Positions 17,274 to 62,344 of a DNA stretch of 64,000 nucleotides are shown here, one piece after another. The notes below the pieces were generated by a model that worked only from the letters and a program-made list of their open reading frames with translations, was not told where the DNA came from and ran no database searches. Made by a program: the position numbers and the translations under genes. Numbering within the stretch: position 1 is the stretch's first letter; each line of letters opens with the position of its first letter. Source of the DNA: Norana najaformis (Eukaryota; Annelida; Clitellata; Crassiclitellata; Hormogastridae); assembly GCA_964023275.1 (NCBI GenBank), contig OZ029918.1:31118225-31182224 (forward strand). Reading direction: 5' to 3'.

Positions 17274-20200
17274 GTCCGTGGGCTCAGTGCCCGTTGGTGT
17301 CAATCGCATGTTTCACCATCCATCTCCACTTGTCTCTTTCCAGTGCCATTCTGCCTCAGCTCGTGTATGTCCATTTCGCACCAGTCTGTGATGTCATCTA
17401 GCCACTCCCTGCACAGTCTTCCTCTAACCCCTGTTCCGTCCATGATCCCGAAAATGGCCTGCTTGATGAGTCTGTCATCTCCCATGTAGCACAGCTTAAC
17501 TTAAAACTGTTTCAGTACAAACTTTAAGGTTATTAAATTTGTATTTCCTTTTTCTATTTTCGGGTCAATCAATAAATTAATTTTTTTTCATTATCTCATT
17601 TTTGACTTTCGTAGGCCCCTATAAAATTCGTAGGCCCCTAGGCACAGTGCCTACTGTGCTTAATGGATAAGACGGCCCTGTTTTTTAAAGAATTTTAAGG
17701 CATTGCTTTGGTAGCGGAGTGGACATTTTTTCATTGTAGGATGGCTTTTCCTGACTGGCTGGCCAACTTTCATGCACTTCAACTCTGCTACTTGCCACCA
17801 GGTGTCAGTTTGCGCGTAAGTAACCATGGAAACCACTTCTTTTAGTGTACGCAGATGAAAATTGTGCAATCCTGGCCGGTGAAAACCAGTCGTGTTCTTC
17901 TAATTTTATTCTTGTAGGTCTGTTTAGTAAGTGTATACACTGTCATACACAATGTCAAGGACTCAGACAACTGTGCATTTTTTCATACCCAACTCTTAAT
18001 TCTTTAAATCATGATGATGATGATGGTGGTGGTGGTGGTGGTGATGAAGCTATGATGATGGTGATATTATACTTTGTGATCGTTGCAGTTTAGTTACGAC
18101 TGTCCATGTGTGAGAATGCGATATGTGCTATTGAGCATGTCTTAGGGAGTGTGCCGTCACTGTAAATGTAAATGTAAACATTTTTCTATAGCGACCGTAT
18201 GGCCTCAAGTCTGCTCATGTTTCAATGAATTAATCGGGTGAGATCATGTATCATTTATTGCAAGCCAAGCTGATAAGCCTGTGCTCCATCAAATGTAAAT
18301 GTACACGTTTTTCTATAGCGACCATATGCTCATTTATCAATCGACTTTGCTCATTTTTCAATGAAGTTATCGGCCCATTTGAATGGGCGCCAAGCCAGTT
18401 AAGGTCCGCGTGTACGGACCGTGCTAACCGGAGATTCAAATCTCTCAAATATAGGCATTATCTGCATCTTCACGCACAGAGGCGCCAGGATGTACGTCTA
18501 AACCACTGTATGGGGAATCTGTGCAAGACTTTATCGCACACGTGCTTTGCCACGTCCGAGGGGTGCCTCTAACTATATAAACACAACGGACAGGGCTAAT
18601 AAAGGCGTTATGCAAATTCATCCTTTTGAAGATTTTTTGAACCGTGCAGGGTCACAAGGAGTGGAAAGAGATTCTCTACAACGGATCCTGGGTTAAAGGG
18701 GTGAACGCCGGAGGCAGCGAACATGGTTCAAGAAATGGTGAGTCTGTCTTCTTTGTGCGTGAATCTCTAGAAAATACGTTGTGTATTCTATTGTTTTGTA
18801 CTCTATTGTAAAATTTAAAAAGTACGTTCTGACCTGTACTGTAAAGTTCGAAAAACAACTGCTGTACTGTTTACTGTGAAGTCTTAAAAAGCACGTGATG
18901 TACTAAACTGTAAACTTCTAAAAAGTACGTACCTTAGCATAAAACCAGTATAGCCGGTCCTTATCTGAATTTTCGCTTGATTCGGCTCAAATCAAACTCT
19001 CTTTCCTAGTCCTAATTAGGGCGCTTAGAAGTTTCCTCTCACGCGTATGGGGCCTGTACACACGCACATTTACACGCAGACATACAGGCATAAAGGCACC
19101 CAGACACGGACATACATGCTCATGGACACAGATACACGGACACGTATAAGTACACACAGACATACAGACAGACACACATACACTTGCAGTTACACCCGAC
19201 TTTGGTGGGGCGTAATACTAAACGGTTGATTTCTGGATGGAATAGATCTGTACTGGACGAATTCCCAGTACAGTGTCATCCTAAGCGGAGAAGCCGATTC
19301 AGCAGAGAGTCTGTCTAAGGAGCCGAAGAGGAAGAACGCACTGATCGTCTCGCTGATGCAGAAGTACGCACGAAGAGCGAGAACAGTCAACAAGGTCGAT
19401 ATGGCCGAAGTACCCATTGCCTTTGACCTTTACAAGGTCAGTCGATTTGCTCTACGGGGTCATGGGGTATTCAGCTAACTATCTCTCTGGGGTAATCTTT
19501 AAAGGCTTACTCAAAGGCTATACAATTCCACGGAGACAGTTGGCTTACTTATCAAAGTATATTAGTCACAGCAGTTGTTAAGAGTCATTTTAATATTTTA
19601 TATTGGTAATATTTATAAGAAAGTAAAAACTAATTATTTATAGGACATTTTCGAATATGTCTTCGTCGTATAACTGATCACAGTTATTGGAAGTGAACTG
19701 ACTGGAAGTGCCCAGGTACGTTTGAATTGGAACATGGGTCACAGAAATTTCAAATTGTAATTTAAGTAGGCGCTACGTAAGTTCTCAATTACCTCTCTCT
19801 CTTGAAACAGATGTTATAGAAGTTCCTATCAATTACGTTTCAATCGAGACTGGCGCTATACAAATTCCCAATTACTTTTCAATTGAAACATGAGTTATAG
19901 AAGTTCCTAATTACCTATTTAGCTTAAACAGGCGCTATATAAGTTCGCAATTTCGTTTTATTTGATATAGGCCAAGTCGAATGAGGTGCCACCGACACTG
20001 ACAGCTAATCACTACGACAAGTACGCCCTTCAGATTGAGAAGAGAGGCGGACAGTACCAGTACTACCGCGAGATATCGGACTTTTTCCACCTGGAAGACG
20101 GTACCTACGTCATCATTCCATCGACCTACAAGCCAAACGTACCGGGAGAATACCTGCTACGAATCTACACCGACGGATGGGCGGACAGCACGTATGCAAC

Positions 20201-23200
20201 AATTCAGCTCTCAATGTCTCTCTGTGTACCTGTGTCTACATCTGCGTCTATAACTGTATCTGTATGTGTATCTGCACCTGTCTGTCTGTCTGTCTGTCTG
20301 TCTGTGTCTGTCTGTCTGTCTGTCTGATATTCCTGACGATGACCAAATCCAATTACTGGCTGACAAGCAAGCATAATCAGCCCGCAATCCCTTTCCGCGA
20401 TCTACATGTATAACTGGCTACTGGCGTTAATCGGGAGGTTTGATCTCTCATTCGCTTGCTGTGTGGTCTCCCTTGAACTTCAGTTTAAATTCAGATGCTC
20501 TAACTCCGGAAGCACGTTTCCGATCATGAGGAGGAATATCTATCGAAGCATGTAAACAGACGTGTTGCCTTTACTATTTTTTAACATTACTATTAAAACT
20601 GTTATCATCTTTCGGACTGTTGTTTTTTGCTAATAGATGTTGGACATTTAGGCGAGGTCACTTATTTCATACAATTTCCGTGTACTATATTTTTGCCGTT
20701 ATAAAACATTTTGAATATTGCAGTGCTTTTGCATAATAATGAGAATGTGCTGAATTAATGCATTGATACATATGTCTATTTTGAATAGGCTTAAGGTGTT
20801 TTAGTGTGATAAATTGATTTCTCTATTTACTAAATTGTTGTTGTTTACAGTGAGATGGATATTGCCACTGAACCCATTCAGGTGAGCACCGCTTTAATCT
20901 TTCCATCTAGAATTAATTGTCGACATTTGGTTGATAATTGGTTAAATGTTTCATTTAATAACGAATTTGATCCAAGCAAAAGAAGAGAAAATCACACATA
21001 ACCAAGACTTAGAAGTATGACATAACATCGTTTAACCAGAACCTATCAGAGAGGTCAGCAGGGTCATTTGGCACGGGCTTCACATCGTAAGGGGCCTCAT
21101 CTTTACATACTGTTTTTCGTCTACTTTCAGATGAGAAAGAAATGTTTTTATTTGAACCAAAGATTTTCTAATTATGATTCAGTGACTAGCAACAAATCTT
21201 TCAAATCCTTTAATTTATTTCATTAATACTTATTAATATTTATTTCTCCTTTTTTGTATTATAATTTCCAAATGGGGTTTAGTAGGCTTATGCTATGCAT
21301 TATTTGAGCTTGGGGCCTCGTACTGGCAGTGACCCGGGCCTCTCCGAATCTCTTAAAGGCCCTGCGTCTAACCTAAAATAATCTCATCTGTAGTGTAGTG
21401 CTGTTAGTTAGGCATACTCACGGTATGTGTGTAGGCCTATGTATGTGTCTGGGTATTTCTATAGCGCTTTCATAAACTTGCTCAAGACGTTTCTGGCTAG
21501 TCTAGATGATGTTAAAGTTGTTTAATAAACTAATTTGATCAAAAGTGCCATAATTAAACTTGTTGTACTTAAGCTAACCTCGAGAAGCAACCACTGGCAA
21601 GAAGTGTTAGCAACTTCATCTTCTCAGCCTCGGCATATGATGGCGGGTGGTCAGTCCTCTCCCTCACCGCATAATTTTCTCACCGACAGTGTATGGTCGG
21701 TGTACTCCTTTTAATAGCTGGGTCCGCTAGGGTCGCTAGTGGAGCAGAAATCCCGAAACATCATTCCTACCTGGCTAGGATTTGAACTCTCAACCTCTTG
21801 GTTAGACAGTCTAGCATGCTAACCACTCGACTGTCGCGCATTCCCCACTAGATCCAATTAACCCAGGTGGTGAGATCGTTCTGGGCGGTGAGACGATATT
21901 GTTCATGGTTGCCTTTATTCCAGAGAACCCGTGCAACCGCTGACACAGTGGAGGAGATGTTCAGACGTTACGCAGGCTCCAATGGCGTCATCGATGGAAG
22001 CGAACTTCAGATGCTCCTCAACGAAGCCTTTAAACAGGGTTCGTCGTCGAAACCTCAATCATTGCTGCAACAAGCACTTTGTATGGCACCTCTTGAAACT
22101 GAATGTTGAATGTCTGGTAGCCGTAGAAACAAATGCGGCGTTTGCTATGTTGTTTGGTAATTGGACACACAGTCATAGTGGTCTACAATCTGACACTACT
22201 GTAATCTGAAAGCTCTTAAGATGGAACATAAAATTTTCCAGTCGGTGAGTGACCACATAAAATTTCTGAATGTATGTCACATTGAGTGGCGTTTGCTACC
22301 ACATAATTTATGTATGGGTGTTTGTTTTTGCTATTCTTTAAAACGATTCCAAGAAGCGTTTTGCACAGACTTATGGAAGACAACTCGTCCAGTAAACGAT
22401 AAATCTCAAACTGTCCTTACTCTGACGAGTGAGAGAAAGTATTACTCTAGAGTAGCAACGCTAATCATGATCTTCGTTATATCAAAGTGTTGTTAAACAA
22501 TCTACCTATCTTGACATCTAGCTAGTTGACGCATAGAGCGCCTCTGATGAGTTCTTCTTGAAGTTGAGTTCGAAACATTTGCGATCACAATTACAATTAA
22601 ACGTACAATTAGATAAATTTATTCCAGGCAGAGAAGGTTATTCCAAGCAGAGAAGGTTATTTCGAGTAGAAATTGTTAGTGTATATACGTACGTATGTAT
22701 TTATGTATGTATGTATGTATGTGTCTGGGTTTTTCTATAGCGCTTGTATGTATGTATGTTTGTATGTATGTTTATATGTATACGAACATTTATTCAGCGT
22801 ATTTTAGGAACCTTTCAATACTGGTTGTTTTCGGTAGAGAAAGTTATTCCAAGCAGAGAAAGTTATTACAAGTAGAAAATGCTGTCCCATGATTCAAAGT
22901 AGGTAAAGTTGTTTTGGGTATAAAATGTTATTCTAGATAGCGGAAGTTAATTTCTCGCATAGAGAAAATTTTTCGGTTAGATGACTGAGAGGATAGAATG
23001 TAATTATTAAGCTGACATTTGTATAGTAAATTCATATAATGCCATTTGCTTCTGTTAAAAAATAGGCTTAACTATCGAATACGCAGTGAATGTAATTTGT
23101 GATTTCTTTGTGAATTTTGTTGCTCAGAAGTCGGCAAAAGTAACCAGTTCGACGTGGAAACCTGTCGAAGTCTAATTTCTATGCTTGACGTATCCTTGGC

Positions 23201-32100: not shown

Positions 32101-35100
32101 GGAGAAAATCCCTTGTTGCTCCCTGTTACCTGCAACCTTTTTTGTTCTCATATTATTCGTGAGATGACGCAGGCGTTATGTGCCGCCTTTCCTAAATGTA
32201 CTAAATGAATCACGTAAGGCAGTAATTAAATCGATAGCAAAGACGTCTATGTATGCTCGCTCCCTGTCCTTTTACCTGGCCAAGTTCAATGAAATAACTA
32301 TGGGTCGTATTATTCGCGAGATGGCACCGGCATTATTTACAGCCTGCTCTATATGTACTAAATGGACCATTACTTAAAGAGTCTAAGGCTTTTATTCGAT
32401 AGATCAATTATTCAAACCCATACCAAAATCTGAGTCTGCCTATGTTATACCCAATCTTACCTTCAGGAGGTGTTTCTTACTTTGCCTTACCGATAACAGT
32501 CATTAAAGTTACATTACAGATGATTACATCACACACCAATACCTGCGGCTAGCCCCTCGGTAAGAACGTTACGTCACGGCGCCTCTGTGCAAGAGGAAGC
32601 CGGTTCACATATCGATCGTGGTTTAATTTAACAGATTTCTATCTCGGTGTAGAACGATCCATCACACATGTTGCAAGGTAATGTAAGGGAAGACAAGGTA
32701 AGACAAGGTAAGGTAAAGCAAGGTAAAATATGACACAGGGCAATGAAAAAGTTGGAGTTTTGATCCCTGTTGAAATCCGCTTGGTACCCTAGAGATGAAC
32801 TTAGGCCTAGTCAACGACTTGGAAAGCCTTTCACCTCCCACGTCTCTGTGAAGTCCGCCTCCTCGTCCAGGATAACTTGTCCCTTATCGTCCTTCGGCAT
32901 CAGTTCATTTCCTGGCTGAAAATGAAAGCGGAAGTAAACTGAAAACGGTAAACAGAACATCGTGACCTTTAAAAGGTTACCTAGCTATGTTCTTGCAATC
33001 CAGTGGTTATACATACATACATACATACATACATACATACATACATACATACATACATACATACATACATAAGTATGTATGTATGTATGTATGTACGTAC
33101 ATATATATATACCGGTAGGGCTTAAATTCATGATTATACGTGTACATATATCAGTCGGTGGTTGTCAACATACCTTGATTGCAACTGGCCAGTGGATGAG
33201 GTACATGTCAACGTATTCTAAGCCGAGGTTTTGAAGGCTCTGACGCAGAGCTGGAACGACATTCTCCTTCCGATGGCTGTTGCACCACAGCTGGAAACCA
33301 GAAGCAAACATAACGGACAAAGGTATGAAATAAATGGGGTAAGGGCTTGGCATAACCTGGTTAATGAAAGTGGACAAGGCTGCTAGAAGCCTTGTTCACA
33401 GCGCTTTAATTTAGGACTGTCTAATGGCGCTACATCATTGTTCAGATACAAACAAAGACGGATCCAGACGGACCAGTCCAGCCACCATACAAGACTTCAA
33501 CCACGATAAAACTAATCCCTCGATCTCACCTCCTGCATCCGCCACACCCGGCAGGTAAGGTCACTTTCACAAGTCCTATCCTGACACCCCTTCTTCCTCT
33601 TATCTCTCTCTCTCCTCTCCAACCCTAACATCACCTCCCCGTAGCTGCCACGCTGTTTCTCCGTCTGACTTTTGGATCTTGACCTGGAACCGAACCCTTT
33701 TCTCTGTCGATTTTTTTTTGACTCAGCGCCTGTGAATAAGCTGGTCCCCGCGACGTGGCTTTCGTTCGGCGCTGTAGAAATCTCCAAACTACGATTACGA
33801 TTACGACTAGAACTGTATGTGTGGGCCGAGCAGGGGCTACTCAAAGTTAACCTTGTGTTCTTGGGCCTTACAACTCACTTCCCATCTTACTGAATCAGCA
33901 CATGAGTTCACCTGTGCCTACTTAAATGGATGGTCAACTCTGGCTTCTTTGAAAAGTGACCATACCTCTACCTTATTTTATCTTTCCTTATCATACCTTA
34001 TCTTACCTGATGTTGCTTAACGTTATACCTAACCTTACTAATCTTACCTTACATTGCTGTATCTTACATTACCTTACCTAACATTACCTAACTTTACATT
34101 ACATTACCTAACATTACCTTACTTTACTTCACCTTGCCTTTACTTTACCTTACCTTAGGCCTATACCTTACCTTACGTTACCTACTTCGATGCTGATGAG
34201 GGTGACTGACCTTGGTGATGATGTAGAGATCCTCCCTCTTGACCACTCCCTGTTGGATTTTCTCTCGAAATGCCTCCCCAATCGGTTGTTCAGTGTCGTA
34301 TAAGAAGGCCGTATCAAAGAGACGATAACCAAGGTCTATGGCCGTCTTCACCGCCGACACAACCATGTCGTGGATGCTCTATGCACCACAGATATAACTG
34401 GTTATGGCTACTGAGGCACTGTAACTATTGACGGTTTATGACTATTGATGGATTCTGACTATAGCTATTGATTGATTCCGTTGGCTGCCTCTCTGTCTTT
34501 TGAACTGACCTTCTGGAAATTGACCCGGTTGCGGCATGGCTTTGATGCCCATCAAGAATGGACCAGAGAAGTAGGCCTAGCATAAGCCACCTGCGCTCTG
34601 GTCCGTGGGCAAGATTGCACATCTATTAAATTAAGTATAAACTATAAAATCGGGTTGAATAAAAAAGCCTAAGGACAAGTGAAACTTCTATCAGTCTCTC
34701 GTTTGTCAGTATGAAAATTCCAAACAGCGTTCACATGACCTAGGTTGATACTTTGACCAGGATTTTAAAAGTCTTAATTCTTGTCAGATGGTCAGCCCAA
34801 ATGGTCAACCTGAAGACAATCACTCATTCTACCTTCGTTACATTCGAAAGGCTGAAGCCGTGCTGATAATTAATCCGCGCTATATACTTGGATGGTGCAC
34901 ACACATCTACATTCGGGTTGTCCACGCGTATACATGGTAAAAAATAAAGTTTTCAATTTTTAATACTGGAGAGTGCCAAATGAGTCCATTACACAGAATA
35001 ATAAATTGAGCGCGATTGGATGAAAACTGAAGAATATTTAGAGGTTGGACGATGCATTGGGAAGATTCATCTGTTATGTCGTTTTGACAACCTTCAGCCA

Positions 35101-38444: not shown

Positions 38445-41400
38445 ATGAAAGCGTGTTTAAGATTTTTGTTAACACCTATCTTAAATGCTGGCAAAAGTTC
38501 ACTGATGTATGTCAAGCAATGTCGAGCCCAGTACTGCAGTACCGTAACAAGCGTTGAATGTGGAAATGCCCTTGAGAAACCCGATGATTCTCAAAATGAA
38601 GATGACAGAATTATGCTAAAAGAATCCGGGACAGAGCCTTGCCGTGACACCGCCGGAAGCCAAATTAACCGTGCTGCGTCTTTAAATACAGTTTGGCCGT
38701 CAGATTCACATAATGGTGGCTCAGTTCAAATCTCCGATCATGCGAATGAATCGGATCGAAAATGTAAAGTTGAGTCAGTCATCAGCGCCGCTTATTCACA
38801 GACAAGGCTTCTTTGCTTTAGGCCTGATAGTGACTTTTACAAAAACAGCGAAAAAACAAGATATGAAGCCTCGGCTGTTCAATCTCCATTAGATCTTGAC
38901 TTTAGCAAGGCATTCTCAAATGATGTCAATTTTGTGATGAGGCAACAGAAGAACAGATTTCAATTAAATGAATTAGTCATTTTAAGAGTTTGTAAACCAA
39001 ATGGGAAGCAATTAGATTTCTTGCTGCGACTTACTGTTGACAAAAAATTGGCCATTGGTCCTGAAGTCAGTATTTCATCAGAGTCCCTACTGGAACGATC
39101 TGTGAGTGAAGGTGATTGGGAGTTGTCAGGTTACAAGTTGTCGCTTAGAAGACCAACACTATCAGAGTACCTTGAACTCCTACGACGAAATACAGCAACT
39201 TCATCTCCTAAGGTATGCAGCAGGGTGAGACTTGTAGGGAAAGAAAGGGGGAATTACCCCTCCACTAGTTTTAGACGTTAGAGCTCCCGATGAAGGTACC
39301 TTATTCTCATACGTTTAACTGGCGCGTAGAGGTAGTCTACTGATTGTGTGTATAGTGCGTTTCTGCAGAGTAATCAGGCATTTTAAGCGAATGGTGTAAA
39401 TTAATTATACATGTATATGCATATGCATGCATTATCTGAACATTTTTGTAGGGCCTTTTATACCTCTCAGAAATGCTCAAACATGTCTGGCTATCTGTCA
39501 GTTCTTAAAGCTGTGTCTGTTGTTTTTTTGTGTGTTATCTGTTGTAACGATGTTGACTTTTGTATATTTTAGGTGTTGTACAGTATGTTTCATTCACTTG
39601 GCATTGGCAGAGGTCTCGACATTTTGGAGACTGGCTCTGGTACCGGGATTGCAACTTTAATCCTCTCATCTTTAGGTGAATAGCAACCTTAATCCTCTCA
39701 TCTTTAGGCGAGTAGCAACCTTAATCCTCTCATCTTTAGGTGAATAGCAGCCTTAATCCTCTCATCTTTAGGCGAGTAGCAACCTTAATCCTCTCATCTT
39801 TAGGTGAATAGCAGCCTTAATCCTCTCATCTTTAGGCGAGTAGCAACCTTAATCCTCTCATCTTTAGGTGAATAGCAGCCTTAATCCTCTCATCTTTAGG
39901 CGAGTAGCAACCTTAATCCTCTCATCTTTAGGCGAATAGCAAACTTAATCCTCTCATTCCTAGATGTACATTTCTGTTTGATTTTTGGTTGATTTTAGAA
40001 TGTGTGATAGTTTAGTGTTAGTCCTGAAGTCAGGGGTTCAGGTGGCAGAAAGATGTTCAAGATGTTTCAGTTCCAGCTATAAAATGATTACACTGACCAT
40101 TTACTAGTGAGTAGATCCGACGACAAGAAAGAGGTCTGGTAACTCACCCTCATATGCTGAGGCTCAGGAAATGACGTCGTGAACACTTCTTACCGGTGAC
40201 TGCTTCGCTGGGGTTAAATTAAGAAACTGCCCGTCTTTTAATTCTTGAGACGCCATTGTTATAGTTCAGAATTCACCAGTAGTGAGGTTATTTGTCATTT
40301 TTTTGTTAAGTAGTGTTTTCTGTTTTTGATGTTGGTGTTTTGCTTAGAATTGTTGTATATAAGACAGTACAGTAGCAATTTTGGTGTTTTTGAATTTCAT
40401 TAGGAAATTATGAAGTAAGGTGCCATTGTTATACTGGGGACTGTTTGGTTGTTTTTATTAGTTGGAGCAACAGGTCATGTGACATCGTTGGACCGATCAA
40501 AGAAAAACCACACTTCAGCTAGGCGTCATTTTGATCGTTGGGTGAACTCCTACAGTTTATCTTATGGGGCCCAGTGGCCTTATAATGTCAAATTTTTTCA
40601 CGATGATATATGCAGTTATGATATGGAAAAGAAATTTGATCTGGTAATAAATTATGAGGACTTCTTACATGCTTTATAAACCTAGACTAAAATCGTGACT
40701 TCTGTTTTTGGACTGTGTGTCAGATTTTAAGTAGAGTTGCAGTTTTCTTATTTTAAATGTGTTGTTTAGATTTTAAACATATCACATTTTTCCTTGCTGC
40801 TGAGGCTTTGCCATTCTCACCATTTAAAATGGACTTTTCCTTAACTCTCATCTGTTGGACCCGAACAGTGCTGGGCTTTTCAACTGATCTGAAGTTTGGG
40901 ATTATATTTCTGTTTTCTGTGCACTCTTTCGGTTGTTTAATGTCATTCAGGTCTCAAGCTTCATCTGTTTCAATTTGTTTACCCACCATACCCTGCTTTC
41001 TGGACTTACTGGATTTCGACTGGACTTCTGTTAATCTTTTTTACTTTGGCTTTGCTTGCAGTTACCATAAAGTAATGCCTTTTGCATTCTGGTAACAGCA
41101 TTGTAAAAGTCATTAGATAAGATTAGAATAGATTCAGTTAGCTGTGCTTAGTTTGAAAATTACCTGTCACAGCTTCTATTTTGTTTATCAGCAAGCTCTA
41201 ATACTATTAATTCTGAGAGCTTTATATTAGAGTGCCACATGATGGCTTTGATATATTTATAGATCGAATTACATTATCTAATGATTCTAACTTGGCTTAG
41301 GTTTTTCTAGACATTTCTGACCTAAGCAGGGTGTTGGAGGTTTCGTCTCGTTTATTAAAGAATGGAGGAATTCTTGCTATCTATGCACCTAGGTAATACC

Positions 41401-44400
41401 TTTTCTGTGCCTTTAAGTGCAATTTTTATCATATCTATCGATAAGTTTTCTGACATAATCTGGTTTACTGTTAGAGATTGCCGCTAGAAGGTGCTTGACA
41501 TAAATCCCAAAAAGTAGAATTACAAGAAGGGTCCAATGTTCTGCTGCAGCTACAATACATGTACATTAAACTCTACACTTTAGAAGTAATGTTTGAAAAC
41601 TAGAGAGGCTGTTGTGTCTAGAACATTTATATAGCATCTTTGGGAGGTTGTTGAAAGACCCTGTCAAGTGTGCTCTGACAAAATGAGTCCTAAGTTGCAT
41701 CACTCAATTTTCCAGAAAAACAGGTCAGAAAGGCCTTTTATGATGAAATCACACATATATGATTTTTCATACATTTTTGTCAAGCATATCCTAGTCTATA
41801 CGTTTTCATTTTATTCTAACAGTGTTTATGCTTATAACTGCTCAAATTTAATGATTTTAATGATTGATTTTGATCAGCAGGGATGGAAAATCCTATTTTG
41901 GGTCAACCTTTGGCAATCTTCTGCCGAGTAACGCAGACGTGTTATACATCATTTGAAAGGTCACTGTCTGCCCATTTTAAACATCATCTAACACAGTTAT
42001 TCTTCCAGGTGTTAGATTCAGATTTACTGACCTTATGTGTGTGATAAGTAGACAATAATGAAGAAAATTGAAATAAAATATGTTGAACTTTTCAGCGTTT
42101 CAAGGCTTGTGACGGTGGACCAGGCTGTTCGAGAAACAGGTTTGCCTCTGACGCTCGAAGGCATTTTTGAGGAAACGGACACAAGATGGCATCTTATTTC
42201 AAAAGGTCTAGGCTCCTAGAGAAATTTGAAAATCGATGAATGTGTGTGTGTGTATGTATGTGTGTATGTATTCATGTATGTCTGTGTGTGGATGTATGCA
42301 TGCATGAATGTATGTATTTACGTACGTCTGTATGTATGTATTATTATTATTATTACTGCACATATTTTTGTCTCGTGCAAAATTGCACAGAAATGCAAAT
42401 CTGAGCCACAGTCAGTCGCCAGGTGAAATGCAGTTAGATACTGCTTACGATGCTATGTTATTACGGTTACAATACATTTATCTTTTATATGATGTGTTTT
42501 GTCATTGTGAGTTAGGGCCATTGGTTAGTAATTTACAATGTGTTCATTTTCCGTCAGATGCTGCTTTGAATCTTGGTTGGCCCGAGAAATGCGAAGATTC
42601 AACAGGTGAGTGTGTGAACCTTTAACGTTTGCTAAGACTAAATAGCTGTGGTGCTCCGCAGTTTTGATGAAAGCTTTTATGTTTAAATTACATTTGAAAG
42701 TTTAGTACCAAATTTTAGTTGAGTTGTTCAAGGTGAACTGTTCAAAGAGTTGAGGCAAAAAGTTCTACAGTATTCCAGTTTTCTGTTGCATAATTAGCAA
42801 AGATTAATTTTTAACAGCAGTTTAGTGTGGAAATGTTCAGATCTGTTGTTGGAATTTCCCACCGTTAGAGAGGTAAACACTGACTATATTCAGAACGTGA
42901 ATGTGGATATAGAATAAAACTGCGTAAACAGTTATAAGTTTTCAACAAATTATCCAAGCCTTTGATGCATTTTTAAATTCAGAAATTTCATGTGTATACA
43001 CTGAGTATATTTACCATTAAACATTTAATTTACCTTTGAACTATTTGCTGATCCTGTTGACCTTGGAAAGAGTGTTAATTGGTGAAATAGTGACAGGTGT
43101 GTTTTGTTTTTGAAACTTCCTTTTTCTAATTTCAGCTTTTCTTGCAAAATTTCGCAAAGTAACAGTTTCCCAAGATTTACCAACTACTGGATTGACTACT
43201 GATGACAAGACAGCGATAGTCTCAGATGTTTTTGCTATGAATGAGTCAGCCATCATTCGCTACACCGATGCAAGGAAGACTGGCCGCCTTCACGAGAAAC
43301 TTATCAAGCTGAAACCTGGCTACAGATTTAATAATGACTTTGGGGGTGTAGCAGCAGAAGATATTATTGGGAAGCCAGTAGCTTCCTTCCTTCAGTCGTC
43401 AGCGGGTTTTACGTTTTACTGTACGAGACCTTCTATCTTGGATTGGCTGCAGTTGGCTCAGAAGACTGCAGTAACCGCTTGGAACAAGGTTTGTGAACAA
43501 CTATTATGTATTGATGAGTCATTGGTTACATTAGATTGCACATAATTTCTAATTATTGTGTGTTATTTATGGCATTTATTATGTGCTTGAGGTGAGTAAA
43601 TCTGAATCTGAGTAGCAAGACTTGTCCAGAGTTGTTACACTGAGTTCACTTATCATTGGATTACAGACCCAGTGCACTCCTGAATGGACCATCCTACCGG
43701 AGGGGTATCAGGTTATAAACATAATTTTGTTAATTACATTCTTGTATAGAGACAACCTGTAGAACTCTGGTCTCATAGAGATTGTGGAGTTTTTATGGAG
43801 ATTTCACTGATTGTAGCCACAGAAGCACATGAATAGACTCCAGTTATCATTCTCATAAACCTTCATGACCCCCAGGGCACAACGATTTAGGAAAGACCAC
43901 AACATACTTAGTTTAATTGGTGCCGAATAGGTAGGTTAGGGTCACTAAGTATATTTGACTTTGAAAATAATTACTTATACTCTATTTAAAGACTGAATTT
44001 ATTGAAAATTTAATTTCTGTTAATGTAGATTTTACTTTCATTGCCTATTTTGATGAAGGGTAAGCGTAACGCTACTGAGGCTAAGAAAAATGAAGTCACT
44101 GACACTTCATGCCCATGGCTGCCTCTTGGGTTAGCTTTGGGCACTGTTCTTCTTGTATAGATTCGGTCATGAATTAGCTGCCTTTGTTAGGGATTTGAGC
44201 TGCAAATGCAGAACTGAATGGCTAATTCTCTGTATCTTTTTCTGATTGACAGTGTATTACGTATGTTCTGTTGGTCACTACTGATGTAAATGGTGCACTT
44301 GAAGTATTACATCTTGTACCTGCGTTTTTATTCTGCTGGTTGATTGGTGAAGTGTTTCTTCTGTGAGTAGCACGTTGCTTTATCGCTTCGGTTGATTGGT

Positions 44401-47400
44401 CTCCAAGAAGGACACAGCATTCTCATGATTGATGATAACAACAATCTGCTGATGGCAATGCTTATGATGCTTCTGCAGACAGGCAAGCAATAAGTATTTC
44501 CTTATTGGCTTGTTCTTCTCTGTTTATTAGTTCGTTTGTTCGTTTGTTTGTTCATTCATTTATAAAACAAGTTCAGGAAGCCTCAGCATCTTTGAGAGGT
44601 TCTTCAAAGGCGCTATATGGTCCATGCATGGGGACCTAAAGTGGCGTGGCACCCATTCAAATGGGTGATGGTGGAGTAGTAACTCACCTGATTAATTCAT
44701 TGAATTCAATCAAAAAATGAGCAAGGTTGAGGCCATATGGTAGTTATAGAGAAATGTATACATTTACATTTATATAGATGTTCACGTACATACATACACC
44801 AGTTTTTGAAGTGTTCCATGGCAAAAGAGGACAGTTCTTGAATGTACCTAGAATTGCATTTTACTTGCTTATTAAATTATTAGTTTGCATTTACATAAAT
44901 TAACATTTAACACTAACAGAAAGCTGATATTAGACTGGCATCCATTTAACTTGAATTTTAACTTGCTTGTATATGGCACGTCTTCCTTTACTGCAGTATC
45001 GTGTCTTTCTTTATAGACATGTGATGTTATTTTGAGAAGTGTTGTGGTATCCTTATTTATGTAGTTCATCCGTCTGGACAGATCTTCATATCTCGACCAG
45101 AAACCGTTGAACAATCTAACAGTTTTGAATGTGAGAAATTCCACAGTGAATTAATGACCTATCTTGGAGAGGATCTTTGCCACTTCTGTCCATCGCTTGA
45201 AAATGTTAAGTTTGTATTGGCATCAGAAGAAGTCAAAGAACTGTGTGATTGTGTAAGTACTTGCATTAAGAAGTGCACATTTAGGTGCTTATTCTAACCC
45301 GAAGAGACGGCATTGGGCAATGAGTTTGAGCATCTGTGTTTTCTTAGCCTTGGCATGGGAGCCTCTAATCTAATCTGCTGTAACCTAATCTAATGACTTC
45401 TACAGCATGGTTAGAGACAGCATTGGGCATGAAGTTTGAGCATCTGTGTTTTCTTAGCCTTGGCAAGGGAATATTTAATGTAATCTAATCTTACCTATCT
45501 AAAGACTTTGGTGGCACCGTTTTCATAATGAACAGGCATCAATCAATGGTAGCTTAAAGTAAATCCATAGAAGGCTAGTATACACTCCAAAGGCACATTG
45601 GATGCTTCAAGTTGGTTACTCTATATTACGTTACACTATATTCAGAATGCTAACCACTAGAGTCCTTCCTTCTTTCCTTCCGTAAGTTCATGGGTACGCT
45701 GCTCGATGGTATGCACCACTAGTTTGACCATCTAGTGTTATCGATCATACACTGGTCTATTATGTTCATATAATGGAAAATGGACATGGGTTCTGTGATA
45801 TTTTGCTTTCTTAGCAAAATTTAGTTTAAATTATTCTACTGACTCTTGACACTGTATATTTAAATGAAACTGGAGATTCTCTAGGTTCCATTATCATCTT
45901 TTTTCTAGAAGAGTGTTTGCAAATGGCTGGATATCTAAGGATATTACCCAGCTTTTAACTCTTCTTAGAGAAAATGGAGATTTCTGGGAGATGTTCTGAG
46001 CCGTGAATATCTCTTCGTTCCTCTCCAGACATTTGTCAACTTGGTCTCATAGTCCTTTCTTTTCCACTGGTCTGCCTGACTGAGGACTTAGCTCAAGGTT
46101 AAATTCCCATGTAGCAAATTTGTATGCTTAGGTAAATCCTTACTTAGCTTCATATTTACTTCCATACATAGGTTCCTTACTTACTTATTTGTCTGCTTAC
46201 TTGCTGGTACTTACATATGTGCTAAATTACTTCCTTACTTAGGTATGTATGTATATGTTGTTCTTTAATTACAATTTATAAGATGCATTTTTAAGACTGA
46301 GCTGCTAGGATTTATCTGACGAAGTAACATTTGGTTTGTTGTAAATACTTGTAGCCAAATAATTGCATTAAAAACTCTGATTGAAGAGCACATAGCAAAT
46401 AACACCTGAAAGTAAATTAATCTTTATTGTGAGTAGAGTTGTAATCTTTTGTTAATTCATTGACGTACTGTTTGTTATTGCTAGGCATACATTAGATGCA
46501 AAGATTCTGAGAAGTATCTCTTCACTGCTGCTCAATCACTGAGGAAAAATGGGCTTTTGGCTGTGCTTTGCAAGAGGTAGATACTGCAGTTTACATAAGA
46601 CACAGCTTTGTTTTGTAGATTGTTCAAGCAAAAGAAAACAATTCAAAGGAGTGAAAAGTTTGTGAAGTTTCTTTAAGTGCGTTTTCTGCGTCAAAGTTTG
46701 GGTCTGGTAGATATTTTGTTTGACTGAAGATTTGCGGAGAACAAAGTATTTTTATTTTATTCCGTTTTCATTATCTGTTATTGTACGTGTGTTTGTCTTT
46801 GTCTTTCATGTTTCTGGTTATCTCTGTGTGTCTGTCACTCTGTCTGTGTGTCTCTATTACTGTCTGTTGTGTGTTGAGCCAAATACATGTAATCCATTCA
46901 AATTTGGAATCACTGTTAATAGAGACTTGCAGGAAATGAGCAACTGTCTCGCTGTACCTTGTCATTTTTAATTGATGTACACGGTGTGAAATGCTGAATG
47001 ACTGTTTTTGTTTTAGTGTAACCGAGGTCAGTTGTGTCCTTGCCCTTGTCCCCGGATTGTCCCTCGAAGTGGCTAATTTCTACGAACATGTTGACAGACC
47101 TTGGGTGGTTCAGCCGATTGGTATCCGCAGAAAGATGCGACAGCCTGGTAAGCGTTGAACCATTTGGCCTTTCACCGTTTATTTATTTATTTAATTTATT
47201 TATACAGAACACTTATATAGTGCCCCTTCAAGAAAACTACTCAGAAGCGCTCCCAAACCAACCTCGGCGAAAGAGAACCGTTGCATCAAGTCATTTGCCG
47301 TAGTAAAAGAGTCATAACAAAGTGGAGAGGATTGAAATGTTTGCATGCTTACTTTTTTCAGAAGTCATTGATGGAAGCTACATCTGTCGTCCTAAACAGC

Positions 47401-47721
47401 GACTAGTACAGAAAACTGGTAAGCAGTTGCTTTTTAACAATTTGCTTATGTGGAACACACACAGTTTAACATATAACTTATCTCCAATAGGTATGTTAGC
47501 GATGCTATTTCCAATCGTGCATTGCAAGTGGAAGTGACAGGTATGCTTATGTCTTCATTTTATTAATTTTTATTACAGATAATTTTATGTCTCAAAGTTC
47601 TGAAATTCTTATGTCTTATGGAAGAAAATGTGTACAAGATTTAGTGGTGGAATTTCATCTGACTGATCGTAAAACTGGTTTGTTTTTTCCAGGGTACATC
47701 ATGATCTTGCGTAAGCTATGA
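38445..47721 (+). CDS. Tandem Trm61-type protein: TRMT61B-like tRNA m1A58 methyltransferase domain plus a degenerate second Trm61 domain, complete, 13 exons, 754 aa
   Basis: Exons: 38445-39212, 39573-39675, 40462-40643, 41301-41392, 42096-42205, 42558-42605, 43136-43488, 44371-44482, 45065-45252, 46485-46576, 47017-47147, 47362-47418, 47693-47721. Phase holds throughout and sums to 2265 bases including TGA. The N-terminus (MKACLRFLLTPILNAGKSS) is basic and amphipathic, fitting import into mitochondria. Domain 1 (about 170-445) has the Trm61 N-lobe (YKLSLRRPTLSEYLELL), SAM motif I (LETGSGTG, 274-281), NVKFFHDDI and FDLVFLDISD, and ends AFLAKFRKV. Domain 2 (about 500-754) repeats the fold (DIIGKP, TRPSILDWLQL), but motif I reads LMIDDNNNLL and the acidic SAM contacts are gone; it ends GYIMILRKL. 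Exon 7 carries the end of domain 1 and the start of domain 2, so the fusion is not an annotation join. The orthologous human TRMT61B has one domain. Confidence 0.9.
39654..39960 (+). repeat. 32-bp minisatellite built from an exon end and its splice donor
   Basis: Nine 32-bp units: CTTAATCCTCTCATCTTTAG then GTGAATAGCAAC or GCGAGTAGCAAC. The first unit is the true end of exon 2 (to 39675) with its donor. Donor-like sites recur every 32 bases at 39708, 39740, 39772 and on to 39932, mostly alternating GTGAAT and GCGAGT. Using a downstream site would put TAG in frame straight after the exon. Confidence 0.95.
40120..40225 (+). repeat. SINE family C, 3' fragment
   Basis: CTCATATGCTGAGGCTCAGG and TGAACACTTCTTACCGGTGA are the reverse complement of the end of the family C copy at 21.6 kb. 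Trm61 gene intron 2. Confidence 0.55.
42239..42350. repeat. (GTAT/GTGT)n microsatellite
   Basis: GTGTGTATGTATGTGTGTAT and similar, beginning 33 bases past the donor of the Trm61-gene exon 5; ends in (ATT)n. Confidence 0.9.
44483..44488 (+). other. GC-AG intron donor in the tandem Trm61 gene
   Basis: Exon 8 ends CTGCAGACAG and the intron opens GCAAGC. Joining to 45065 keeps the frame (LLQT then VHPSGQ) in register with Trm61 family order. Confidence 0.8.
44565..44780 (+). repeat. SINE family A, tail half
   Basis: AGGCGCTATATGGTCCATGC, GGGGACCTAAAGTGGCGTGG, CCATTCAAATGGGTGATGG, TGATTAATTCATTGAATTC and a terminal ACATTTACATTT; reverse orientation to the copy at 18.3 kb. Confidence 0.65.
45300..45490. 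repeat. Tandem duplication of a SINE family C fragment
   Basis: Two copies (about 45305-45370 and 45414-45480) of GCATTGGGCAATGAGTTTG...TTTCTTAGCCTTGGCA, each followed by an ATCTAATCT run. In Trm61 gene intron 9. Confidence 0.75.
47165..47290. repeat. Interspersed repeat with TATATAGTGCC module
   Basis: (TTTA)n, then CACTTATATAGTGCCCCTTC and CTCAGAAGCGCTCCCAAACC; same order as near 23.25 kb. Trm61 gene intron 11. Confidence 0.65.
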
Positions 47722-47803: not shown

Positions 47804-47809
47804 AATAAA
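47804..47809 (+). terminator. Poly(A) signal of the tandem Trm61 gene
   Basis: AATAAA 83 bases past the TGA at 47721. A reverse-strand AATAAA lies at 47840-47835, so two convergent 3' ends may overlap here. Confidence 0.7.
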
Positions 47810-51358: not shown

Positions 51359-54300
51359 CTTCTGTATTTTACGATCAGGAATACTGAAGTGGCGATTACG
51401 ATTACTGCGATGACTGAGCAGATGACGATTGCGGCGATTTCTCCTCCGCTTAGAGAGGACGAAGAATCCTTTTCTTCATCTGAAACAGCAAAGTGACATC
51501 AGTTATACGTACGGGGGTTACATGTATTAATCTGTTTCATCTTTGTAAAAGGATCGCCGGTTGAGACAGTAGGCAGGAATTCAGTGACTACGTTTGCCGA
51601 CTACATGTTTGTTGGCATGGCGACTACATTTTGGGGGCTATTTTGGCATGGCGACTACATTTCGGGAATTATGTTGGCATGGCGACTACATTTTGGGATT
51701 ATGTTGCCATGGTGACTATATTTGTGCGATTATATGTTGGTATGGCAACTACAGTTTTAGGTTATGTTGACATGGCGACAACAGTTTTAGGTTATGCTGG
51801 CCTTTATATGGGGCTTTTTGGACGAGAGACATAACCATCTGGTAAGGTTGTTCAGCTGCCTTTTTTGGTAATGATAGCGGTTTGGCTAGAGATTCGTCAA
51901 TCAGGCCTTGGCGTCCATGGCCGACGCGTACACGGCATTCCATCTGCCTCACTGTCTTCCATTCTCTCTCTCTCTTTCTCTCTCTCCCTCTTTCTCTCTA
52001 ACATTCTCTGTCTGTCCGTCTGTCTGTCTGTCTGTCGTCTGTCTGTCTAATCTCTTCCTCCGAAGTACCAAACCATCTATGTATGTATGTATGTATGTAT
52101 GTATGTATGTATGTATGTATGTATGTATGTATGTATGTATGTATGTATGTATGTATGTATGTATGTATGTATGTATGTATGTATGTATGTATGTATGTAT
52201 GTATGTATGTATGTATGTATGTATGTATGTATGTATGTATGTATGTATGTATGTATGTATGTATGTATGTATGTATGTATGTATGTATGTATGTATGTAT
52301 GTATGTATGTATGTATGTATGTATGTATGTATGTATGTATGTATGTATGTATGTATGTATGTATGTATGTATGTATGTATGTATGTATGTATGTATGTAT
52401 GTATGTATGTATGTATGTATGTATGTATGTATGTATGTATGTATGTATGTATGTATGTATGTATGTATGTATGTATGTATGTATGTATGTATGTATGTAT
52501 GTATGTATGTATGTATGTATGTATGTATGTATGTATGTATGTATGTATGTATGTATGTATGTATGTATGTATGTATGTATGTATGTATGTATGTATGTAT
52601 GTATGTATGTATGTATGTATGTATGTATGTATGTATGTATGTATGTATGTATGTATGTATGTATGTATGTATGTATGTATGTCCGACATAATCATGACCG
52701 AACTGGGGATTTGCTCACGTACCCTTTTGAGCCATCGGTGTAATGGTCTTTTCTGTTCGTCGCATGATTTATGGCCTGCAGCCAGTTCTGTAGATGGCAC
52801 GCTAATCTCTTAATATTCATTCATTCACCCATCCATCCATCCATCCATCCATTCATTCATTCATGGAAAACCCATTTTAGTTGGTGTATTCTTGCCCAGG
52901 AGGTCAAGTTTATGCGTTAGCGTTATTCTTGTTGTCGACGATGATAGGTTTTTAACACAAAGAAAGGGCTTCGAAGAGTGCATACTGTTTTATCCATCTG
53001 ATCAAAGGTATGCTACCGAAACGTTTGCCTAGCCATGCACTTGCAATTAGGCGGCCTCTACGAGCTAGATAAGATAAGGCCTAAAGGCCTAACCGCCTCA
53101 GAACGAAGTCCAATGCGGCGATGTGTATTTATGACTTGCAATCTATTACATTAGTCTGTATTATCAACTTTAGGCAATAATAATTAATTAGGCCTATAAT
53201 TATCTGTCAAGCGAATGCATGACCTATGGGCTTATGCGGTCCACAATAGGTAGACCGAATAGGCCAAAGCGTGCATTCTGTTAGAACATTTAAGCATAAT
53301 TTAGTTCACCGTAGGCCACCGAAGCCTACAATATGTCCAGAAATGAAAACCCTGTTTCCTTATTTATTTACTGTTAATATTGTTGTAGATTAGGAAGTTA
53401 CCTTTAAAGTGACGTCATATTATTACGCAATTATTTTCCTTTCAATAAAGAAGATAGAATTACAATTATAATTGTGTCGTATATAATTATATAATTATTT
53501 TTGTGATGTAAGATGTAATAATAATAATTATTATTAAATTTTTACATCACACTGAGAATTATGGTGCAAATAGTTTGCTTAATAGTAACTTCTATAGCGC
53601 CACAGTAACAATGCTCAATGGATGGTCGCTACTAAGCAAAATCGTTGTGCAAGCCAAATTCCAGGATTCGTCCCGTCGAAAAACCAAGAAAGGAATGCGA
53701 GAAGACACAGAAACAACCTACGGAGGAAATGAATCCAGGAAGAGATGGGTGTTTAGTCGAGATATTAAGGTCAACACAGACTTAGCAGAGCGAACGTTTG
53801 CCGTGAGAGAGTTCCAGAATCTAGGGCAAGCGTCGGAAAAGGCGCTCCTGCTGACAGCTGTCCTTGAGCACGGAATAGTCAAGTAGAGACAAGTCTTGGG
53901 TGTCAGTAGAGTGAATATTATGAGGTTGGATGAAATATAGAGTCTCGTATACGATTAACAGAGTATTCTCTTTATATGGGCAGTCAATGATCAGAGATGT
54001 ATTATGTGAATGAAACTGTGAAAATAGCAGAAGTCGCTATTCATTAAGAACGAAGAATTTTCTCAAAAAAGTAACAAAATTCAAAAACATTTCCTGTCGG
54101 CTGTTTATGAGGCGATATTTTAAAAGTATTTTCGGATTAAAGATGAACACCAGAGTTTTTTTAACACACTCACGCAAAAGAGTAACATAATGTTTGAAAT
54201 GTATAAAAAACTAAAATTTACTTTAGTTATTGTAATTTCTCTTGGGCTTCCTCTTCCGGATATATAAATTTATATTAATACATACACCCCAGATACATTC

Positions 54301-60909: not shown

Positions 60910-61263
60910 TTACGTCAGCAAACGGGTGCAGAAGTCGACGATCTCCGTAGCTCTCTCGCAACACCGGCGATAGATCAGGTATTCTTCGGCGACTTTACCG
61001 CACAAGAAGCAGTCGGTGAAAATGCTATCTTCTATGCACGCCTCCGGGCGTTCTATGGGACGGGCCACACGGCGCGGTTGCCTCGGCTGCTGGGGCAACG
61101 AGGAGCCCGAACGCGTTGACAGGGACCCGTACGATCGGCGTGGCACCGATCCGAGGATACCCGCTGGGTGGCTAGAAGTTTCGCGAACGATCAGGGCGAT
61201 TGCGAGCGCCAGAAGCACGGCGCAGTGTGTCCACCCACGTCGACAACTGAATAGACTCTTCAT
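60910..61263 (-). CDS. Secreted cysteine-rich peptide precursor, 117 aa, family not recognised
   Basis: ATG at 61263-61261 gives MKSLFSCRRGWTHC, then a hydrophobic core (AVLLALAIALIV) and SSHP, a clear signal peptide. A basic middle follows (VPRRSYG; QPRQPRRVARP) with possible dibasic cleavage sites. The C-terminal part has six cysteines, C-x8-C-x2-C-x12-C-C-x9-C, ending CTRLLT. This layout fits a processed hormone or neuropeptide-like secreted peptide, but I cannot name the family. A frame-open ATG lies at 61320; 61263 is preferred because gttcagtttcag just before it looks like the acceptor of a 5'UTR intron. AATAAA on minus at 60810-60805, 100 bases past the stop, supports a real transcript end. 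Confidence 0.65.
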   Translation of the reverse strand: MKSLFSCRRGWTHCAVLLALAIALIVRETSSHPAGILGSVPRRSYGSLSTRSGSSLPQQPRQPRRVARPIERPEACIEDSIFTDCFLCGKVAEEYLIYRRCCERATEIVDFCTRLLT

Positions 61264-62344
61264 CTGAAACTGAACACAGTACGGATCGTCAAGCAAAATT
61301 GCTAGGTCACGGCTTAACATGGTACACTGCTACTGCTAAGTGTCGGGTAAATTCTGCTGCGTATGTACAAAGCCTACACTAGTGTCGGACAAATTACAAG
61401 CATGGAAGCTGCTTATCAGCTTGCATCGACTATCTTTCCCTGATCTGGAAGCCTTCTTTCCACACATCATTACTAAAATAAGAATTAAGACAATCAGATT
61501 TCATTAAGTGTAGCCCTATATGGAACAGCTTTCGGTAGACAGGACTAAAGAGCCTATAGCTACCGCTATAAATTATGCTGTTTCATAGCTTATAAGTTAT
61601 AACCGTTACCAGCTCGCGTAGACTACTTTTGCCTATTCCTCTACGGAAATCACAACCATCCGAATAAGAACATCATTCGGATTTGATTAAGGATTTTTGA
61701 AGGCTGTTAGGAACAATGAATGCAGTATAAGCCGCTATAGACTTCGATAGATTTACATGACAGTATAACCTGTAGAATACGAATATTCAACTTACAAAGT
61801 TCAAAGATCTTTCACAGAAAAAACCTATTTAATTCGGGGCATAATCCAGTAACTTATAAAGCGCCAGTGTGAAGGTCGAAGTATAGGGCAATATTTATGT
61901 TAATACACGGTTTATCTAGGCTATACAGTATACTCATAAAATATGCTGTTCTGTACGCTTAGGCCCTACTCCAGATTCTCTTTTGACTGATCTACAACAC
62001 ACGATGTCCCGTCATCCTGCGACAGTGTGATTTCTGAAAAGGTCGCCTATAGTACGGCGCATTAACCCAGTTGTAGACCCAATCCCTCGCATGGCATGCA
62101 TGTCCTGCTCTTTGCTACGCCATATGCTACCGTATGACCCCGAGTTGAAAGTCCACTGGGACTGTCCAAATGCCAAGACTAGTGATATGTCATTGACCTC
62201 GCATCTGATTATCATTAGATATAGGCTATCTTATCTATACAGACATATAATTACGAGACTTTATCCTAGAGAGATACATCCTAGACATTCCGTTCTATTT
62301 ACTTCTGCAGATCGTGGTTTTCGTACAAAGACAGGATGATAGTA

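Follow-up and report, generated by a model that had tools for sequence, protein, structure and literature searches.

In a window of 64,000 nucleotides from the genome of the annelid Norana najaformis (contig OZ029918.1, positions 31,118,225 to 31,182,224), we identified a gene, at 38445-47721 on the forward strand, that encodes two TRMT61B-like methyltransferase halves in tandem in one chain. In the reading that we prefer, with a probability of about two in three, half 1 would hold S-adenosylmethionine (SAM) and methylate its substrate, and half 2 would be a pseudoenzyme in the role of Trm6. The fused protein would thus apparently be a one-chain counterpart of Trm61/Trm6, and it probably makes N1-methyladenosine (m1A) in mitochondrial RNA. 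The fusion, the common origin of its halves, the loss of the SAM site from half 2 and the uneven retention of the two lobes are read from the sequence; how the fused protein assembles, what it targets, its activity and its location, we infer.

The genome searched comprises 608 Mb in 17 contigs. Rebuilding the gene with its splice sites gave 13 exons and 2265 nucleotides (754 codons plus the stop), all in phase, as the initial annotation had claimed, and every motif quoted there is present in the translation. All 12 introns are GT-AG except intron 8, which is GC-AG, and the stop is followed by a poly(A) signal (AATAAA) at 47804. The N-terminal 37 residues contain five Lys or Arg and no Asp or Glu (isoelectric point 9.65) and are presequence-like by composition alone. 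Two repeats lie within the gene. A 32-bp minisatellite (39651-39957, 9.6 copies) has a unit that extends over the last part of exon 2 and the adjoining splice donor; the later copies repeat donor-like sites, and use of a later site would, as judged by eye, lead to an in-frame stop. Intron 9 contains a 110-bp unit in 1.9 copies (45303-45508).

Both halves (half 1, residues ~165-443; half 2, residues ~468-754) are, by profile and alignment, TRMT61B/TrmI-type methyltransferases. The family profile was made from 27 proteins, neither half included: 24 of 34 prokaryotic loci (ten further Thermaceae loci being excluded), the Protein Data Bank (PDB) chain 2b25, which we take to be human TRMT61B, the fish protein P0005, which is named as the mitochondrial enzyme and matches 2b25 at 8e-89, and part of M. 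tuberculosis TrmI. Half 1 scored 115 bits against the full profile and half 2 scored 64 bits. With separate lobe profiles, in which only rows filling at least half of the lobe were used, half 1 scored 91.8 bits and the Rossmann part of half 2 scored 35.3 bits for the C-lobe; the corresponding N-lobe scores were 9.7 bits for half 1 and 33.9 bits for half 2. When three pieces were shuffled 500 times each, 233-403 shuffles gave any match and the maximum was 7.4 bits; for the Rossmann part of half 2 against the C-lobe profile, the shuffles reached at most 6.7 bits (358 of 500 with any match). Against nine family members, the hhalign values were 99.6% (half 1), 98.1% (half 2) and, when the Rossmann part of half 2 was compared by itself, 91.2%. 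The two halves share 21% identity over 199 residues with a score of 106, against a maximum of 60 in 1000 shuffles. The best PDB match of half 1 is chain 2b25 (E 4e-28), and half 2, searched by itself, matches TrmI of M. tuberculosis (E 1e-4), 2b25 (E 7e-4) and other TrmI chains. An NCBIfam scan returned general methyltransferase models only, none above its cut-off. Gene model, profiles and shuffles together bear out the initial annotation of one gene with two Trm61-type domains.

The two halves have kept different residues. The family set has 16 columns listed as fully invariant. Eleven of their residues are found in half 1 and seven in half 2; 13 are present in at least one half and three in neither. 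Half 1 alone has the three glycines of SAM motif I (G277, G279, G281), as had been claimed for the first domain, together with Asp355, Tyr379 and Phe436, and half 2 alone has the N-lobe Gly504 and Arg710. At the glycine positions of the GxGxG motif half 2 carries D, N and N, and its residue at the position of the catalytic Asp355 is Arg656, a comparison free of gaps, exons 4 and 10 having the same length of 92 nucleotides. The loss of the SAM site, which had been claimed for the second domain, holds for motif I, for the beta-3 Asp (S643) and for the catalytic Asp; it is softer for the beta-2 acid, which is Arg600 if the sequence is read colinearly and Glu611 in a MAFFT alignment with an 11-residue insertion. 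The three positions that contact SAM are all acidic in half 1 (D339, D355 and, in place of Glu, D301). Passages in PMC4125815 give E120, D148 and D165 as the SAM contacts of A. aeolicus TrmI, and passages in PMC5007650 describe mutants of yeast Trm61 at E139, D168 and D203 that lose most or all SAM binding; the catalytic Asp of human TRMT61B is D335 according to part of PMC5025228.

Decay is two-way when judged by the lobe profiles, a point overlooked in the initial annotation: the N-lobe is nearly gone in half 1 and recognisable in half 2. The same holds across relatives, since N-lobes of the half-1 type (our gene and four relatives) score 4.9-14.1 bits and those of the half-2 type (our gene and four relatives) 28.4-34.9 bits; in this comparison both lobes are never found in one relative's record. 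The N-lobe of fish TRMT61B, a protein that is itself part of the profile, scores 68.2 bits. In the C-lobe, the majority residue of the family is present at 38 of 75 positions in half 1 and at 23 of 75 in half 2.

The introns point to an ancient duplication of a TRMT61B-like gene, the two copies of which were fused in one frame. Intron phases run 0,1,0,2,1,1 in half 1 and form the same string in half 2. Five of the six intron pairs share a column in a protein alignment that was made without knowledge of the introns; the sixth pair (introns 5 and 11) falls in a gapped loop before the last strand, with equal phase. Random placement of six against six introns gave two coincidences at most in any of 200,000 draws, and the chance that the two phase strings agree is, by itself, 0.001-0.003. 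This agreement in order, phase and column argues for an old tandem duplication and fusion. No DNA repeat of at least 40 bases was listed between the halves, the repeats consisting of minisatellites and a duplicated intron stretch only, and this lack of similarity at the DNA level is why we consider the duplication old. Exon 7 bridges the two copies: it holds both the last strand of copy 1 and the N-lobe of copy 2.

The evidence supports a fusion distinct from the older Trm6/Trm61 duplication, in agreement with the separate origin put forward initially. In the TRMT61A-like gene of this genome (C4), motif I through the catalytic LDLP lies in one exon, which is thus without introns at the second and third intron sites that both halves have in common. 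In the phylogenetic tree, both halves group with bacterial TrmI and TRMT61B as against archaeal TrmI and TRMT61A (support 99/97). The phylogeny had been proposed along with the initial annotation; it gives the side of the tree on which the halves lie, but does not resolve the pairing of half 1 with half 2 (70/0). TRMT61A-like and TRMT6-like matches sit on other contigs of the genome. A Trm6 origin of half 2 was considered and rejected for want of Pfam support, half 2 having no match to the Gcd10p/Trm6 model PF04189 at E<=1. Searching the genome with each half found no second TRMT61B copy at E<=0.001; the matches were the gene's own exons only (five of five and six of six).

As to how the protein could work, the two halves would fold together as one two-protomer unit of a TrmI tetramer, and two chains would give a tetramer with two active sites. 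Half 1 would bind SAM and perform the methyl transfer, the N-lobe of half 2 would grip the T-arm, and the C-terminal Arg-Pro loop of half 2 would help to close the base pocket of half 1. The likely product would be m1A in mitochondrial tRNA (position 58) or rRNA. According to parts of PMC5007650, both subunits of Trm6-Trm61 contribute their N-barrels to the enclosure around the tRNA, and the dead subunit supplies two residues, His430 and Met433, to the lining of the active subunit's A58 pocket. At that pocket position the yeast and human TRM6 chains have His-Pro, if the numbering of the yeast chain is offset by ten residues as we presume, and in the TrmI and TRMT61B rows the column of the pocket loop holds either Arg-Pro or His-Pro. 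Arg736-Pro737 of half 2 stands at the family distance from the last strand, whereas half 1 has Trp426-Pro427 and is one residue shorter there. TrmI tetramers of T. thermophilus bind at most two tRNAs, which is taken in the relevant part of PMC3281791 as identical subunits in unlike roles; the same source describes TrmI tetramers as dimers of tight dimers in which a Glu226-Arg230 pair links subunits. Mapped by spacing, this pair reads E706/R710 in half 2 but E407/T411 in half 1, so that it could be kept only by a contact between half 1 and half 2 or between two copies of half 2. We are more tentative, and lean slightly against rather than for it, about a further step: that the halves are mutually dependent, each keeping what the other lost, and that the Trm61/Trm6 design arose separately a second time, here within a single mitochondrial chain whose base pocket was adapted to unusual RNAs of the organelle.

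Several observations weigh against the active-plus-dead fusion as we propose it, and the first of them concern its target. Three residues that are invariant in the family set are absent from both halves: the PKD Asp is V257 in half 1 and H553 in half 2, the base-pocket Gln is R385 and E686, and the GHT His is S433 and K744. Half 1 seems to have an intact site for the chemistry but does not have the base pocket of the family, so the target may be shifted. The fusion protein could then have left m1A58 altogether, methylating another RNA site or acting as a SAM-binding RNA chaperone, which we consider unlikely. This would fit a half 1 that keeps motif I and the SAM-contact acids and has lost all three of these residues, and human TRMT61B already has a second target, modifying A947 of 16S rRNA besides A58 of mitochondrial tRNA (part of PMC5025228). 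However, motif I is accompanied by an intact catalytic Asp355, and the genome search above found no other TRMT61B copy for the usual job. Other points bear on the proposed division of labour. The picture of reciprocal loss is drawn from the profile scores and from a small number of key residues; by majority residues the N-lobe and linker helix are equally kept (9 of 19 in each half), and the C-terminal tail is kept at eight of 14 positions in half 1 and only six of 14 in half 2. The TRMT61B FKBP-like N-lobe model PF21985, for which no match was listed in half 1, scores 20.5 bits in half 2 and 18.0-20.4 bits in relatives P0006-P0009, below its cut-off of 27, and the GCD14 model scores 25.9 bits in half 1, just below its cut-off of 26. 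The pair Glu226-Arg230 is absent in P. abyssi and can be removed in yeast with the tetramer kept (part of PMC3281791). Long branches meet where half 1 and half 2 pair in the tree, and the dead Rossmann part is known from one genome.

Relatives bear on whether half 2 is maintained. A protein search with exon 1/domain 1 gave five matches among 1960 candidates, P0001-P0004 and, as the fifth, the fish enzyme; P0001 is continuous through exons 1, 2 and 3. The search with exon 7 gave four matches among 80 candidates, P0006-P0009, which are 76-85% identical among themselves and are thus distinct. P0006 and P0007 share the acceptor and the donor of exon 7 and contain everything in between, namely the last strand of half 1, the linker and the second N-lobe. 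P0008 includes part of the linker and P0009 begins at the N-lobe. Since P0006 and P0007 span the halves, the fusion predates at least those two lineages. The protein search for other two-domain members, suggested at the outset, found no full-length two-domain homologue at E<=0.001 among the best 7994 candidates (proteins of ~415-1319 residues). We regard it as a little less likely still than a change of target that half 2 is a relic, half 1 alone being the enzyme and exons 8-13 decaying or usually skipped. Half 2 is very divergent (tree branch 2.98), it contains the GC donor, and no record found from a relative covers exons 8-13. Yet these exons hold 202 codons without a stop, which has a chance of ~1e-6 at the intron stop rate, and their codon make-up is closer to that of half 1 than all 2000 intron samples, although its log-odds are slightly negative (-7.3 bits). 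Splice sites and phases are intact, the stop falls at the family's usual end, and exon 7 is conserved at 72-74% identity in the relatives. The last strand of half 1 lies inside exon 7, and no alternative last exon was seen, although a short one would escape the searches. That two neighbouring genes were wrongly joined and half 2 is a separate protein is highly improbable: Met469, the sole Met of exon 7, lies just before the second N-lobe as a possible start and is also Met in P0006 and P0009, but P0007 has Val and P0008 has Leu at this position, and exon 7 holds the last strand of half 1 without a stop, as do P0006 and P0007.

Table 1. Exons of the gene for the fused methyltransferase; positions are those of the 64-kb window.
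Feature	Position	Strand	Evidence
Exon 1: N-terminal extension (presequence-like) and domain 1 N-lobe	38445..39212	+	open frame, donor GTATGC; P0002-P0004 match at 57-60% identity
Exon 2: domain 1 SAM motif I	39573..39675	+	AG/GT sites, phases 0 to 1
Exon 3: domain 1 beta2-beta4 (D301, D339)	40462..40643	+	rebuilt gene model; P0001 continuous across exons 1-2-3
Exon 4: domain 1 catalytic Asp355	41301..41392	+	gene model; aligned to LD of 2b25
Exon 5: domain 1	42096..42205	+	gene model
Exon 6: domain 1	42558..42605	+	gene model
Exon 7: domain 1 last strand, linker and domain 2 N-lobe	43136..43488	+	gene model; P0006-P0009 at 72-74% identity
Exon 8: domain 2 decayed motif I (IDDNNNLL), GC donor	44371..44482	+	gene model
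Exon 9: domain 2	45065..45252	+	gene model
Exon 10: domain 2, Arg656 replacing catalytic Asp; 92 nucleotides like exon 4	46485..46576	+	gene model, alignment
Exon 11: domain 2 (E706, R710)	47017..47147	+	gene model, alignment
Exon 12: domain 2, R736-P737 loop	47362..47418	+	gene model, alignment
Exon 13: last strand and stop	47693..47721	+	gene model; AATAAA at 47804

Elsewhere in the window, a calpain large-subunit domain III exon lies at 19971-20324 on the forward strand (PF01067, E 5e-11) and an aldo/keto reductase exon at 33168-33395 on the reverse strand (PF00248, E 6e-8). An open frame of 139 residues at 60913-61329 on the reverse strand, with a signal-like stretch and a Cys-rich end as judged by eye, is possibly a secreted peptide; it has no Pfam match at E<=0.01. 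Several frames are open in a long TGTA-type microsatellite at 51952-52810. In the rest of the genome, the only COX1 copies found were decayed nuclear ones of the mitochondrial gene, at C15:412069-412726 and 570464-571281, which carry TGA and TAA in frame. Near them we found no rRNA match (Rfam, E<=0.1) and no tRNA (ARAGORN), and one Rfam tRNA match fell below its cut-off (27.2 against 29 bits).

The gene bears on the question of why the identical subunits of TrmI yielded to an active-plus-dead pair in the cytosolic enzyme. A second pairing of this kind, separate in origin and fixed in a single chain whose introns match and whose losses largely mirror each other, points to the parts that each half has to retain. 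If true, it would also be unusual among the mitochondrial RNA-modification enzymes of animals. Among the matches listed from titles and abstract openings of the open-access literature, a scope that leaves aside subscription journals and unpublished annotations, no two-domain TRMT61B was found. The fused protein resembles TRMT61B in the best PDB match of half 1, in the N-lobe type of half 2 (PF21985, sub-threshold) and in its side of the tree. TRMT61B has one domain per chain, whereas the fused protein has two unequal ones; TRMT61B is described as a tetramer, presumed to be TrmI-like, in part of PMC5372732, whose conclusion says homodimer. Bacterial and archaeal TrmI share the fold, as judged by profile, the motifs and the tetramer concept, but consist of identical single-domain subunits. 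With the cytosolic m1A58 enzyme Trm6-Trm61, the fused protein shares the combination of an active subunit and a SAM-less paralogue, in which the dead partner keeps the N-barrel and the (His/Arg)-Pro loop; unlike it, Trm6-Trm61 is encoded by two genes, both matched elsewhere in this genome, and half 2 is without a PF04189 match. An active and a dead domain in one chain are already known from PRMT7, whose N-terminal methyltransferase domain is active and forms a pseudo-dimer with an inactive C-terminal one (part of PMC7224190). PRMT7 is a protein arginine methyltransferase, and the likeness is one of design, not of descent.

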